Source: a virus. Taken from it: a DNA stretch of 25,174 nt. Both the position numbers and the translations under genes were made by a program. Within the stretch, counting starts at the first letter, position 1; every line of letters begins with the position of its first letter. Positions 4,946-25,174 of this stretch are shown piece by piece. Under the pieces are notes generated by a model that saw only the letters and a program-made list of their open reading frames with translations, was not told the DNA's origin and made no database searches. Where the stretch lies: positions 1 through 25,174 of the IMG/VR virus record IMGVR_UViG_3300044646_001223; one strand, written 5' to 3'.

Positions 4946-15705
<10,760 letters not shown>

Positions 15706-15721
15706 TTAATGTAAATAGTAT

Positions 15722-16009
15722 ATGATTATTAAAACTGATTATATTTTATCCGAGTATCAACGTGTTAGTAAATTAGGAAATACTCATACATATTCAAGGA
15801 AGAAGTCAATAATTACATTCCGGTGTGATTGCTGCGGTGAGTTATTTCAAAGAGAACGTGGAAGTATGGATCCTAATAGATTGAACAACAATTTTTATCA
15901 CGTATGTAACATGTGTGATGTAAAACGGTTTGCTCAACAGAAAGGTGTTGAAAATAAACATATATGGGATATGCCAGTTTCTTCACTCAAGACAATAGAC
16001 CAATTATAA
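15722..16009 (+). CDS. Zinc-ribbon-type small phage protein (95 aa)
   Basis: A 95-aa basic protein with two CxxC knuckles: FRCDCCGELFQRERGSM near residue 34 and HVCNMCDVKRFAQQKGVE near residue 61. This is the layout of a zinc ribbon. The line GSMDPNRLNNNF..VC..CD.KRFAQ.KG is conserved, as I recall, in many T4-like phage proteins of unknown function. It is the first plus-strand gene and is divergent from the giant fibre gene. A weak -10 (TATAAT at 15699-15704) lies 17 bases before the ATG, but no Shine-Dalgarno is evident, so expression may be low. Its stop codon overlaps the late promoter of the next gene. It could bind nucleic acid or be a structural zinc protein; neither is shown. Confidence 0.75.
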   Translation: MIIKTDYILSEYQRVSKLGNTHTYSRKKSIITFRCDCCGELFQRERGSMDPNRLNNNFYHVCNMCDVKRFAQQKGVENKHIWDMPVSSLKTIDQL

Positions 16010-16012
16010 ATA
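16005..16012 (+). promoter_or_regulatory. T4-type late promoter (TATAAATA, exact)
   Basis: TTATAAATAAAG on the plus strand, an exact match to the T4 late -10 element. It overlaps the stop codon of the zinc-ribbon gene and lies 17 bases before the lysine-rich EF-hand-like gene. Confidence 0.7.
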
Positions 16013-16029
16013 AAGAACAAGGAGAATTT

Positions 16030-16407
16030 ATGTTTGAATTTATTAAAAAATTATTTCGATTAGGAAAAGTAGAATCTGAAATTGCCGTAGTTGACGAACA
16101 AGCAAAAAAAGTTACTAGAAGAGTTAAGAAAATAGTAGATATCAATAACGATAACGTTATTAATTTAGAAGATGTAAAAGAAGTTAAAAAACGTGTTTCT
16201 AAAAAAGTAAAAGAAGTTGCTGATGTAAATAGAGACGGTAAAGTTGATATAGAAGATGTTAAAGAAGCAGTTAAAAAAGTTTCTACACGTATTAAACCAA
16301 CACCGCCACAGTCAGTAATTAAACAAGAAATTGCTGAATCAGTTAAACCAAAACCAAAACCTACTAATAAAAAACGTGGTAGAAAACCAAAAGCAAAAGC
16401 AAAATAA
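16030..16407 (+). CDS. Lysine-rich protein with two EF-hand-like loops and AT-hook-like tail (125 aa)
   Basis: A 125-aa protein; the ATG at 16030 is preceded by GGAGAATTT and a TATAAATA late promoter. Two 12-residue loops have calcium-ligand spacing: D37-N39-D41-V43-N45-D48 (DINNDNVINLED) and D65-N67-D69-K71-D73-D76 (DVNRDGKVDIED), 28 residues apart and each followed by a VKE..KK helix. This is like a dockerin or EF-hand pair. The C-terminal 35 residues are a flexible proline/lysine tail ending KKRGRKPKAKAK, which resembles an AT-hook or histone H1 tail. The first 12 residues (MFEFIKKLFRLG) could form an amphipathic helix. The late promoter suggests a virion or packaging role. Calcium and DNA binding are inference from motif only. 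It ends at a strong intrinsic terminator. Confidence 0.8.
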   Translation: MFEFIKKLFRLGKVESEIAVVDEQAKKVTRRVKKIVDINNDNVINLEDVKEVKKRVSKKVKEVADVNRDGKVDIEDVKEAVKKVSTRIKPTPPQSVIKQEIAESVKPKPKPTNKKRGRKPKAKAK

Positions 16408-16410
16408 CTT

Positions 16411-16434
16411 AAAGGGGCTTATAGCCCCTTTTTT
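16411..16434 (+). terminator. Intrinsic terminator after the lysine-rich gene
   Basis: AAAGGGGCT pairs with AGCCCCTTT (9 base pairs, loop TAT), followed by more T residues. It lies 3 bases after the stop and faces the end of the convergent 64-aa frame, so it may act on both strands. Confidence 0.85.
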
Positions 16435-17698: not shown

Positions 17699-17727
17699 AT
17701 AATATACTGATTACTAATCATTGTCAA
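17699..17727 (-). promoter_or_regulatory. Sigma-70-like promoter for the UV damage endonuclease gene
   Basis: TTGACA (17722-17727), a 17-base spacer and TATTAT (17699-17704). The -35 box lies in the last codons of the 113-aa gene. Gives the repair gene its own transcription start. Confidence 0.7.
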
Positions 17728-18055
17728 TAGACAATTCAGATAGTTGTTTTTTTAATGCTTTTATGTCATTTAATAAGTCAGCTATGATCGCATATTCATT
17801 AGATTGATGTTCTAGTAGATGATATATTACTTTCATAGTCCAATACCACCAATTCATACATACAATAAGCATTAATGAAACAATAACCCACCAAATTGAT
17901 TTTTCATGGAGTCCTGTTAACCAATCCCATCCAAAAATTAATAATACTACACAAACAAACACAACAGAACTGGCGACCAACCATCTGCGTCGTTGTAAAT
18001 TTATTTTAATTATTTCTTGTGTATGTTTTTCAATAAGGATGGTGAATCGTATCAT
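17714..18055 (-). CDS. Two-helix membrane protein of unknown function (113 aa)
   Basis: A 113-aa protein with two hydrophobic helices, WLVASSVVFVCVVLLIFGW (about residues 25-43) and WWVIVSLMLIVCMNWWYW (about 55-72). A basic arginine-rich segment precedes the first helix, and a C-terminal helix (ADLLNDIKALKKQLSELSI) has coiled-coil-like heptads. The N- and C-termini are probably cytoplasmic by the positive-inside rule. The ATG sits inside an 11-base-pair perfect hairpin, which should limit initiation. A short two-helix protein can be a holin, an inhibitor or a superinfection-exclusion factor, but nothing in the sequence decides between these. It lies 31 bases after the 396-aa gene and 42 bases before the UV endonuclease, so it may be cotranscribed with the former. 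Confidence 0.75.
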   Translation of the reverse strand: MIRFTILIEKHTQEIIKINLQRRRWLVASSVVFVCVVLLIFGWDWLTGLHEKSIWWVIVSLMLIVCMNWWYWTMKVIYHLLEHQSNEYAIIADLLNDIKALKKQLSELSIDND

Positions 18056-20441: not shown

Positions 20442-21278
20442 ATGAATATTTATCAATCAATACCAGCATATGTGTATAAAATCACTTGCAATCCAACTGG
20501 GCAATTTTACTACGGATACCGTGAAAGAAATATAACGAATCATAAATACCCACACGAGGACCTATGGGTTGAATATTTTACAAGTAGCAAGTTAATCAGC
20601 GACTTATTAAGCCAATATGGAAAGGATAAATTCACTACTGAAATTATTTTTACTAGTACGAATAGATTGGATGCATATTGGATGGAACAATCCTATATTC
20701 AACAGCATTGGACCAACGCATTATTATTAAACAAACATTTTATCGACCCAGTATCTAAACGCAAGGCATTTAGAGCAACAAAGGAAACTGCTGCAAAAGC
20801 AACATTAACTAAACGTTTACGGGGTACGGATAAACTTGGTGGTGCAAAAACACTAGAAACTTTGAAAAATTCCGGGAAATTACGTGATAGAGCATTGAAG
20901 TCTGCCTCAACAAAACGAAAGAATGGTACCGATAAATTATCAGTGGAAAAGTCTATAAAAACCAGAAAAGCTAACGGTAATGATAAAATCGGAACTGAAA
21001 AAATGGTTAGAACTAGAATTGAAACTGGTTCATATATCACTGGTGCTGCCAAAACAGCGGAATTAAGAAGGATTAGAGGAACCGATAAAATCGGAGCTGC
21101 AAAATCCGCTGATAAAAATAGTCATTTCTGGGAAGTTATAAATCCAGAAGGGATGTCATCAGTAATTAAAAATTTAAGTAAGTTCTGCCGCGATAACGAT
21201 CTGCACGTAGCTGCCATGTGTAGAATAACAATATCTGGTAGATGCCATAAAGGATGGAAATGTAATAGAATACAATGA
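20442..21278 (+). CDS. GIY-YIG homing endonuclease with 17-residue repeats (HEG1)
   Basis: A 278-aa protein. Residues 10-30 hold the GIY-YIG nuclease signature in variant form (VYKITCNPTGQFYYGYRERN, with YYG for YIG and R27 or R29 in the catalytic arginine position). E82 in WMEQSYI fits the metal-binding glutamate. Residues 111-228 are a linker of seven tandem units of exactly 17 residues (consensus GTDKLG..K....TR..). The C-terminus (HFWEVINPEGMSSVIKNLSKF, then CRITISGRCHKGWKC) resembles a helix-turn-helix DNA-binding module of phage homing enzymes. The gene is antisense to both neighbours and complete with its own late promoter, leader hairpin, AGGAG ribosome site and terminator. It makes a site-specific break that promotes copying of the gene into phages lacking it. 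No intron or split host gene is seen, so it is a freestanding type. Confidence 0.85.
   Translation: MNIYQSIPAYVYKITCNPTGQFYYGYRERNITNHKYPHEDLWVEYFTSSKLISDLLSQYGKDKFTTEIIFTSTNRLDAYWMEQSYIQQHWTNALLLNKHFIDPVSKRKAFRATKETAAKATLTKRLRGTDKLGGAKTLETLKNSGKLRDRALKSASTKRKNGTDKLSVEKSIKTRKANGNDKIGTEKMVRTRIETGSYITGAAKTAELRRIRGTDKIGAAKSADKNSHFWEVINPEGMSSVIKNLSKFCRDNDLHVAAMCRITISGRCHKGWKCNRIQ
20772..21116 (+). repeat. Seven tandem 17-codon (51-base) repeat units inside HEG1
   Basis: Residues 111-228 of HEG1 divide into units of exactly 17 residues beginning at R111, G128, G145, G162, G179, G196 and G213. The pattern is G-T-D-K-(L/I)-G-x-x-K-x-x-x-T-R. Position 1 is Gly in six of seven units and position 9 is Lys in all. 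Confidence 0.8.
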
Positions 21279-24083: not shown

Positions 24084-24111
24084 GTAGTTCGCGGATGGCC
24101 GTCCCAACTAC
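24084..24111 (+). promoter_or_regulatory. Leader hairpin of HEG2 mRNA
   Basis: The arms GTAGTT (24084-24089) and AACTAC (24106-24111) pair. The inner helix is GGA/TCC, possibly extended by a U-G pair around a GGCC loop. The loop differs in sequence and length from HEG1 while both helices are kept, as expected for a selected RNA structure. Confidence 0.7.
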
Positions 24112-24136
24112 TCTAACATTAACAAGGAATGTCAGC

Positions 24137-24892
24137 ATGAATATTTATACAATCTATACAGCCACTAATAAAATAAATGGAAAAAACTATATTGGGTTTG
24201 ATTCAAAATGGCCTAAAAGAAAATACGAACATCATTATAATAGCACAGTTGGCTCATCAAATCAAGTATTCTATAATGCAATACGGAAATACGGATGGGA
24301 TAATTTTGAATGGAACATAATTTATCAATCACATGATGCAGAACATACATTAACAGTAATGGAAAATCATTTCATAAATGAATATCGTAGCTATATTCAT
24401 TTTGAAAATAGTAATGGATATAACATGACATTGGGTGGAGAAGGAATAGTTGGTCATATACATACCCTGGAAACCAGAAATAACATTAGTAATGCATTAT
24501 TAGGAAAAACAAAAGGAAAACCAAAACCGCCTAGATCAGCTGAACACTGTGCAAATATAAGTAAATCTAAACGTGGAAATTGTTATGGTATACAGAATAA
24601 AGGACAAATACCTTGGAATAAGGGGAAATCTGGAGTATATTCAGATGAACAACTACAAAATTTAAGAAACCATGCGATAGGACGTGATAAGGGGAAAGGC
24701 TGGTATAATGATGGTATTAAAGAATATTTTATATTTCCTCATCAAACATTTGATACCTATATAAAAGGAAGAATAAAAAGGTCTAGAAATATGAAACCTA
24801 TTATTTGTCCTCATTGTGGTATATCCGGTAGTGGTGGGAATATGACTAGATACCATTTTGATAATTGTAAAGATAATAAAAAGGGGACATAA
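24137..24892 (+). CDS. GIY-YIG homing endonuclease with NUMOD3-like motifs and C-terminal zinc finger (HEG2)
   Basis: A 251-aa protein. The start at ATG 24137 (MNIYTIYTATNK) is chosen because AAGGA lies 8 bases upstream and it matches the start of HEG1. Residues 3-30 are the GIY-YIG nuclease core (IYT..., NYIGFDSKWPKRKYEH) with R29 and catalytic-type E76 (VMENHFINEY). NUMOD3-like repeats follow at about 108-125 (HTLETRNNISNALLGKTKGK) and 134-147 (SAEHCANISKSKRG), with a third weaker copy near 158-185. The last part (C224-x2-C227-x12-H240-x3-C244, ICPHCGISGSGGNMTRYHF) is a zinc finger seen in phage homing enzymes. It is antisense to its neighbours, has its own late promoter and leader hairpin, and its stop lies in the loop of a terminator. 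It is freestanding. Confidence 0.88.
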   Translation: MNIYTIYTATNKINGKNYIGFDSKWPKRKYEHHYNSTVGSSNQVFYNAIRKYGWDNFEWNIIYQSHDAEHTLTVMENHFINEYRSYIHFENSNGYNMTLGGEGIVGHIHTLETRNNISNALLGKTKGKPKPPRSAEHCANISKSKRGNCYGIQNKGQIPWNKGKSGVYSDEQLQNLRNHAIGRDKGKGWYNDGIKEYFIFPHQTFDTYIKGRIKRSRNMKPIICPHCGISGSGGNMTRYHFDNCKDNKKGT

Positions 24893-24920: not shown

Positions 24921-25174
24921 TTATGCTAAATCGTTTTTCAATAATTTAGCAATGGCTTGTACTTCTGTATTTACTACACCCATTACTGCAAGTGCGGCCC
25001 ATCCAAAGAATACGAACCCATAATGTAAAGGTGCAACAAATAATTCCTCCATAAACCAGAATGTGTGACCCCATTCGTTCAAGCCAACGTTTGGCAAGAT
25101 CATGAAAGGACCGATAACCGCGATCAAATACATCAAATGTAAACCTTCTTGGTATGTAGGCAATCTTGTTTTTG
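24921..25174 (-). CDS. pmoC: Particulate methane monooxygenase subunit C, C-terminal part (runs off right edge)
   Basis: The last 83 residues or so of a membrane protein that reads KTRLPTYQEGLHLMYLIAVI then GPFMILPNVGLNEWGHTFWF and MEELFVAPLHYGFVFFGW. This is the PmoC/AmoC C-terminal region. The set N-x3-H-x13-H (NEWGH...PLH) has the spacing of the Asn227-His231-His245 CuD copper site of Methylococcus PmoC, so a key metal site is intact. Two helices flank it. PmoC and AmoC are hard to separate from a fragment; PmoC is favoured because pmoC-bearing phages of freshwater methanotrophs are known. No start is visible because the gene enters from outside. The TTG at 25163 is internal. It ends 19 bases from the HEG2 terminator, which should also stop its transcript. 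Membrane insertion into host pMMO is inferred. Confidence 0.88.
   Translation of the reverse strand, partial: KTRLPTYQEGLHLMYLIAVIGPFMILPNVGLNEWGHTFWFMEELFVAPLHYGFVFFGWAALAVMGVVNTEVQAIAKLLKNDLA

Follow-up and report, generated by a model that had tools for sequence, protein, structure and literature searches.

The locus and the virus that carries it

We examined a gene, P0001, in a window that is the complete 25,174-base virus record IMGVR_UViG_3300044646_001223. The gene encodes a small basic protein, described in an earlier note as late-expressed, with an EF-hand-like pair of loops and an AT-hook-like tail. The gene, its parts and surroundings, and two other genes of the window are as follows.

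15722..16009, plus strand: upstream gene of 95 residues with two CxxC pairs, zinc-ribbon-like by eye
16005..16012, plus strand: T4-type late promoter motif TATAAATA, matching the T4 consensus
16020..16024, plus strand: AGGAG ribosome-binding site, read from the sequence
16030..16407, plus strand: target gene P0001, an open reading frame from the ATG at 16030 to a stop codon ending at 16407 (125 residues, pI 10.1)
16030..16065, plus strand: N-terminal amphipathic stretch MFEFIKKLFRLG, residues 1-12
16138..16173, plus strand: loop 1 DINNDNVINLED, residues 37-48, a 12-residue D-x-N-x-D loop
16174..16221, plus strand: 16-residue connector separating the loops, a helix in both low-confidence AlphaFold models
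16222..16257, plus strand: loop 2 DVNRDGKVDIED, residues 65-76, a 12-residue D-x-N-x-D loop
16258..16368, plus strand: little-constrained stretch, residues 77-113, the end of a helix and then a linker (dN close to or above dS)
16369..16404, plus strand: basic tail KKRGRKPKAKAK, residues 114-125
16411..16431, plus strand: intrinsic-terminator-like hairpin with a 9-pair stem, detected on both strands
4954..15690, minus strand: tail-fibre-like open reading frame of 3578 residues, more than 40% of the record
24921..25172, minus strand: AmoC/PmoC-type monooxygenase subunit, C-terminal part, truncated at the end of the record (Pfam E=1.6e-41)

The virus is probably a T4-like phage infecting methane- or ammonia-oxidising bacteria. 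In the tail-fibre-like frame, the final 982 residues match fibres of T4-like cyanophages, a pelagiphage and other phages, together with hypothetical proteins, over 13-30% of the length among the matches listed. A neighbouring frame of 396 residues has relatives in 42 records, including phiM12, Cr30 and PA5oct, and the related genomes G001 and G003 encode a T4-type gp23 capsid protein. The monooxygenase subunit has matches in two of five relatives searched, being full-length in G002 and split in two, with internal stop codons, in G003. Its best NCBIfam model is bacterial AmoC (scores of 131 for the partial copy in the window and 383 for the G002 copy, against a cut-off of 319), and the G002 copy also exceeds the cut-off of the general methane/ammonia model (352 versus 281). 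Phages of methane oxidisers that carry pmoC are known, one of them with a fragmented pmoC (PMC7674155).

Several other frames of the window deserve mention in their own right. Two probable homing-endonuclease frames (matches to a NUMOD3 motif and to SegE-type GIY-YIG) lie on the plus strand at 24095-24892, adjoining the AmoC/PmoC gene, and at 20442-21278. On the minus strand, a 169-residue frame at 265-774 matches part of the NTPase domain of the bacterial DNA polymerase III alpha subunit (47 bits), which is unexpected for a T4-like phage, and a 131-residue frame at 22235-22630 matches the C-terminal domain of ribosomal protein L7/L12 (26.7 bits against a cut-off of 25.9).

Close homologues of the target protein were found at six viral loci, which together with the window's own protein represent four distinct proteins: that of L002 (identical to the window's), L003/L004, L005/L006 and L007. 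At each of the distinct loci, namely those of the window, L003, L005 and L007, the 95-residue CxxC gene lies directly upstream; a Pfam search gave no match for it at E<=0.01.

The motif TATAAATA is the T4 late consensus as published (PMC1524935), and it stands 16-18 nucleotides ahead of the ATG in each of the four distinct loci, including L005, where the flanks differ. Across the genome of the relative G001 the motif is rarer than expected rather than enriched (23 copies against 42), so we do not treat it as stand-alone proof of late expression. Six of the 23 copies precede a start, compared with 16% for permuted motifs; those six include copies ahead of a baseplate-hub gene, two long fibre-like frames (by eye) and the target homologue. 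The proposal of late expression is supported by the similar distance of the motif in the homologues and weakened by its genome-wide scarcity in G001, and on these sequence grounds the target gene is likely to be expressed late.

Conserved parts of the protein and its close homologues

The two loops with full D-x-N-x-D spacing are real. The window protein scores above the Pfam gathering cut-offs for both EF-hand_1 (30.9 bits versus 25.4) and Dockerin_1 (27.9 versus 22.9). When it was shuffled 20,000 times, a loose form of the loop pattern appeared at least once in a single shuffle and twice in none. Among open frames of at least 60 codons, the target is the only one of 74 in the window with a loop, and it carries two; in G001 there are two such frames among 469, and only the target homologue has both loops. 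Among solved structures, those nearest in sequence are calcium-binding EF proteins together with dockerins of type I (for example 6kgc_B, 3ul4_B and 4fl4_A).

Oxygen ligands are present at positions 1, 3, 5, 9 and 12 of both loops, and position 6 of loop 1 is Asn rather than Gly. The earlier note had proposed conservation of the ligand positions in homologues as a check, and this holds: all ten are identical in L003 and L005. What does not hold is a canonical EF-hand pair. The loops are of EF/dockerin type with conserved ligands, and they are separated by 16 residues rather than by the roughly 25 of calcium-responsive EF proteins; in lanmodulin the spacing is 12-13 (PMC10232371). The separation is also 16 in L003, L005 and the more distant L065, 9 in L007 and L062, and 20 in L059. 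A connector of 9 residues can hardly accommodate both helices of an ordinary EF pair, and L007 combines two perfect loops at this distance with an apparent decayed third. Two AlphaFold models give a helix-loop-helix-loop-helix arrangement with pLDDT values of 53 and 51, and because both are of low confidence we make no claim about the fold.

Codon comparisons indicate that selection preserves the loops and the tail and leaves the linker at residues 77-113 free to drift. For both loops jointly, dN/dS values are 0.09/1.06 to L003 and 0.12/1.54 to L005, and for loop 1 alone 0.03/0.92 to L003; site numbers are small, with 12-13 synonymous sites in the loops. The connector gives 0.08/0.35 to L003 and 0.06/0.35 to L005 and the tail 0.07/0.32 and 0.00/0.18, whereas residues 77-113 give 0.33/0.34 and 0.73/0.34. 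Residues 1-12 are almost fully conserved in L003, where 11 of 12 are retained, and moderately so in L005, with 9 of 12 (0.17/0.31).

The tail is strongly basic, with a net charge of +11 over the last 20 residues of the window protein, and its RGRKPK is invariant in all four distinct close homologues, the window counted. A DNA pattern for RGRKPK was found in none of 11 named comparison phages. The AT-hook core is R-G-R-P. What is conserved in the tail is a basic motif, and the AT-hook label is not supported: no AT-hook family appears among Pfam matches at E<=1, and RGRK stands where an AT-hook has RGRP. More generally, the lysine-rich sequence of the window protein attracts many weak, unrelated family matches.

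The N-terminus was overlooked in the earlier note. MFEFIKKL is invariant in all four distinct close homologues, again counting the window, and in the window protein the hydrophobic moment reaches 0.86 over 11 residues from residue 3, with no hydrophobic signal segment found. This conserved part points to a membrane rather than to a free intracapsid protein.

A tblastn search of 50,697 named-phage records with the window, L007, L065 and L008 proteins returned either nothing or only matches at E 2 and above, which is weak evidence of absence since the low-complexity filter of BLAST probably masks lysine-rich proteins. The DNA pattern for the loops was found in none of 11 named comparison phages. 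Among six named comparison phages, Dockerin_1 matched in none and EF-hand_1 in one, below cut-off (phiM12, a different type of protein). A weak match of PA5oct to profile A1, built from the window family (E 0.013, with an internal stop codon, six named phages searched), was taken as chance. Patterns for the N-terminus (16 stretches) gave no new family members, ten of the stretches being unrelated proteins with a similar start, and those for loop 1 (5 stretches) gave only phages already known to carry the gene. In host genome contigs, profile A1 yielded no confirmed relative among 336 pattern stretches. No paper on such a phage protein turned up in literature searches, at the level of their result listings. 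A different type of phage membrane protein, with one EF loop followed by hydrophobic segments, occurs at L025 (G004) and L022 (phiM12); its EF matches are below the Pfam cut-offs in L025, and L022 has none at E<=0.01.

A wider group of transmembrane-type proteins

Loop-pattern and profile searches of viral contigs revealed 12 further distinct phage proteins of 89-137 residues with the same plan, bringing the total to 16. The group comprises L056-L065 without L057 and L058, plus L009, L095 and L111-L115. L057 and L058 were left out as a different type of protein with a lipoprotein-like start. Members have a hydrophobic N-terminal segment in place of the amphipathic helix (8 computed, 4 near-identical by eye), then one or two D-x-N-x-D-G loops, then a tail with a net charge of +7 to +9 over the last 20 residues. 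The plan common to this group and the window family is a membrane-type N-terminus, loops and a basic tail, with identity mostly within the loops. Across 23 loops from the 16 distinct proteins, positions 1 and 5 are D and position 3 is N in all 23, and position 12 is D in 22, counts that for the transmembrane group are partly imposed by the search patterns. Several members carry one loop only; if these are tight metal binders, they may pair between molecules.

Profile A1 matches profile A2, built from seven transmembrane-type proteins without the L095 group, with 97.7% probability over 53 columns that cover the loop region only. Judged from the profiles, the match is one of shared domains and not necessarily of one gene lineage, and it could reflect a common EF domain rather than a common gene. 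Searched against host genome contigs, A2 found seven loci in firmicutes, Bacteroidetes and an archaeon.

The orientation of the transmembrane-type proteins can be estimated from charge. In all eight sequences examined, the N-terminal flank of the hydrophobic core has no K or R and the C-terminal flank has 1-5. The latter flank also has 1-3 acidic residues, and its net charge is zero in five of the eight. The bias therefore leans weakly towards a tail and C-terminus inside the cell.

Five of the 12 distinct transmembrane-type proteins (those of L095, L111, L112, L113-L115 and L062) are encoded directly after the prohead protease gene, gp21. In L095 the order is portal, two genes, gp21 protease, target-type gene, one gene, an S21-like gene, presumed gp22 scaffold and gp23; Pfam confirms portal, protease and capsid, PHROGs confirm the S21-like gene, and gp22 is assigned by position, with no Pfam or PHROG match. 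L113-L115 agree with this order, as does L112 with one extra gene before the S21-like gene, and L111 agrees from the start of its contig, which falls after the portal. Head genes of L111-L115 were read from similar sequences, and the L062 protease was confirmed by Pfam; family scans covered the L095 genes, the L062 protease and the gene after the L062 target. The four distinct proteins between gp21 and gp22 (L095, L111, L112 and L113-L115) are all encoded ahead of the capsid gene and have RGRKKK or PGRKKK as their last residues, and these tails form a sequence bridge to the window's RGRKPK. Tails of several other relatives lack RGRK and are of the KYGGRVKK and KKATTKAK types.

T4-type head genes are confirmed in the records of L095, L062 and L009, and gp23 was not found in those of L056, L060, L062, L064 and L065, which are fragments. 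Other transmembrane-type genes are found away from a head cluster, near fibre/primase, GIY-YIG or Dps-like genes (all by eye) or near UvdE genes. In four named T4-like phages (Mosig, P-SSM2, phiM12 and BUCT-ZZ01, the last with gp21 and gp22 both identified by position and label) no gene is annotated between gp21 and gp22.

We also noted several features of these regions that are of separate interest. The phage ribosomal protein S21-like gene of L095 (5547-5762) lies within the head cluster, ahead of the presumed gp22. The transmembrane-type gene at L060:2320-2589 is followed directly by a Dps/ferritin-like frame (by eye). In G001 the portal gene (L072:13943-17146) encodes 1067 residues with an internal match to an HNH endonuclease, a possible intein, and at 138426-140094, just before the presumed scaffold gene, two similar frames with a common YPVSEI flank an unrelated frame of 270 residues. 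By eye, this arrangement looks like a disturbed prohead protease gene.

A possible role in head assembly and its relation to known systems

We propose that the window protein is a late, cytoplasm-facing, membrane-associated accessory protein that tethers or organises head assembly at the membrane, with metal-bound loops and a tail that binds a polyanion. This reading is tentative, with a probability of about one in three. The likeness to short proteins encoded beside head genes points to such a role without proving it. The layout of N-terminus, loops and tail is well supported, and the binding of metal, the attachment to a membrane, the ligand of the tail and the function are inferred. The N-terminal amphipathic helix, like the transmembrane helix of the related group, would attach the protein to the cytoplasmic face of the inner membrane. 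One to three EF/dockerin-type loops would coordinate Ca2+ or a different hard metal, locking short helices into a compact rod that serves as a helical spacer. The flexible basic tail would then grip a polyanion; the likeliest candidates are the scaffold core of the membrane-bound prohead and DNA being packaged, and lipid is a further possible ligand. In T4, prohead assembly begins on a portal fixed to the inner membrane, with gp40 assisting (PMC9958956). The combination of an anchor, probably cytoplasmic loops and tail, and a recurrent site beside the prohead protease gene suggests that the tether may act there.

The main weakness of the head-assembly reading is that the window's own gene lies outside the head cluster; in G001 the family gene sits at 33 kb, against 141 kb for the capsid gene. 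On this reading the window protein would serve the same function as the transmembrane group. Free Ca2+ in the cytoplasm is normally very low, and an inward-facing Ca2+ sensor would therefore mostly be empty. In favour of the reading is a weak match of the window protein to a PHROG head scaffolding family (phrog_4866, 17.2 bits, E 0.0069), which perhaps reflects composition only.

A bolder extension is that T4-like phages possess an unnamed class of head-assembly protein, in which an anchor, a metal-gated rod built from dockerin-type loops, and a basic tail link the growing prohead or packaging DNA with the membrane. Influx of divalent metal at a membrane breach would release or stiffen the rod, making calcium a signal of late morphogenesis. 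We regard this as a long shot.

Alternatively, the protein may be packaged with the DNA as an internal head protein, like IPI-III of T4, its metal-loaded loops and tail condensing capsid DNA or entering the cell at ejection. This idea of the earlier note seems to us unlikely. The late motif, basic composition and tail conservation agree with it, the head-cluster site of the similarly built proteins fits it equally well, and there is a weak match to internal head proteins of phiKZ (PF12699). At 19 bits against a cut-off of 27, however, that match is below threshold in a sequence low in complexity, and an invariant amphipathic or hydrophobic N-terminus is unexpected for a free internal protein. 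Crosslinking of DNA in the capsid is possible, and we do not favour it.

The same late motif, together with an N-terminal anchor and basic tail, would suit a factor acting in lysis or on the envelope: a membrane-anchored basic protein, spanin-like or cationic and membrane-destabilising, whose loops are switched by metal influx through the holin lesion. Rz-like spanin matches occur in the transmembrane-type proteins L056 (phrog_8821, E=7.5e-4) and L065 (phrog_214, E=3.7e-3), and a nearby gene of the window (17714-18055, minus strand) matches a spanin family very weakly (phrog_89, E 0.099). Counter to this, the matches are weak and probably driven by an anchor plus a charged helix, the window protein has no PHROG spanin match at E<=1, and the predicted topology leans, weakly, to a tail inside. 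We consider a lysis role distinctly unlikely.

A further option is an organiser at the interface of membrane and nucleoid, comparable in plan to p16.7 of phi29, in which the basic tail anchors DNA of the phage or the host at the membrane, with no tie to heads. The anchor and the basic tail with its RGRKPK core would serve such a function, but the tail has no AT-hook match, RGRK is missing altogether from the tails of several relatives, and the late motif suggests action after replication has started; on balance this explanation is improbable. The notion that compact, lanmodulin-like loops retain or transport rare-earth ions in a methane-oxidising host draws on the AmoC/PmoC gene of the same record, on loops closer than in calcium sensors and on a weak NCBIfam lanmodulin match (E 0.0046), and we judge it highly improbable given the low score, two loops rather than four with 16 rather than 12-13 residues between them, no Pro at position 2, Asn in place of Asp at position 3 and no hydrophobic signal sequence.

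Whichever reading is preferred, small phage proteins repeatedly carry EF/dockerin-type loops flanked by an anchor of membrane type and a basic tail. If metal matters to the head-assembly tether, divalent cations would be tied to head assembly or packaging via a specific, testable protein. Even if it does not, the proposal offers a hypothesis for small genes that have no assigned function in the family libraries used.

Looking across known systems, we did not adopt the family names AT-hook, lanmodulin, spanin or phiKZ internal protein, for which the window protein is below cut-off or has no match. Lanmodulin (NCBIfam NF053806) resembles it in having closely spaced EF-type loops, but the score is 17 bits against a cut-off of 135, and position 2 is I or V. 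The hallmarks of lanmodulin are four EF hands, a 12-13 residue spacing and Pro at position 2 (PMC10232371). With T4 gp40 and the membrane-bound prohead initiator, the likeness lies in the proposed site of action, the prohead at the inner membrane, and we claim no sequence relation. The transmembrane-type group, which may include the window protein, has the same plan of membrane-type N-terminus, loops and basic tail, and differs in that its N-terminus is hydrophobic and that of the window protein amphipathic.

The usual EF-hand residue at loop position 12 is Glu. The window protein resembles EF-hand_1 (PF00036) in its 12-residue D-x-N-x-D loops flanked by helical stretches, and departs from it in having Asp at position 12 of each loop, in the Asn that occupies position 6 of loop 1, and in the shorter separation. 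Type I dockerin (PF00404) has duplicated D-x-N-x-D loops with Asp at position 12, as here, with a longer connector, so that 41 residues of the protein align to 47 profile positions. That dockerin is an exported module of cellulosome-type enzymes and scaffoldins, whereas the window protein is a stand-alone phage protein with no hydrophobic export signal. Loops of the EF-hand and dockerin kinds are familiar mainly from proteins of signalling and of cellulosomes, and the protein described here is an unusual setting for a known type of loop.
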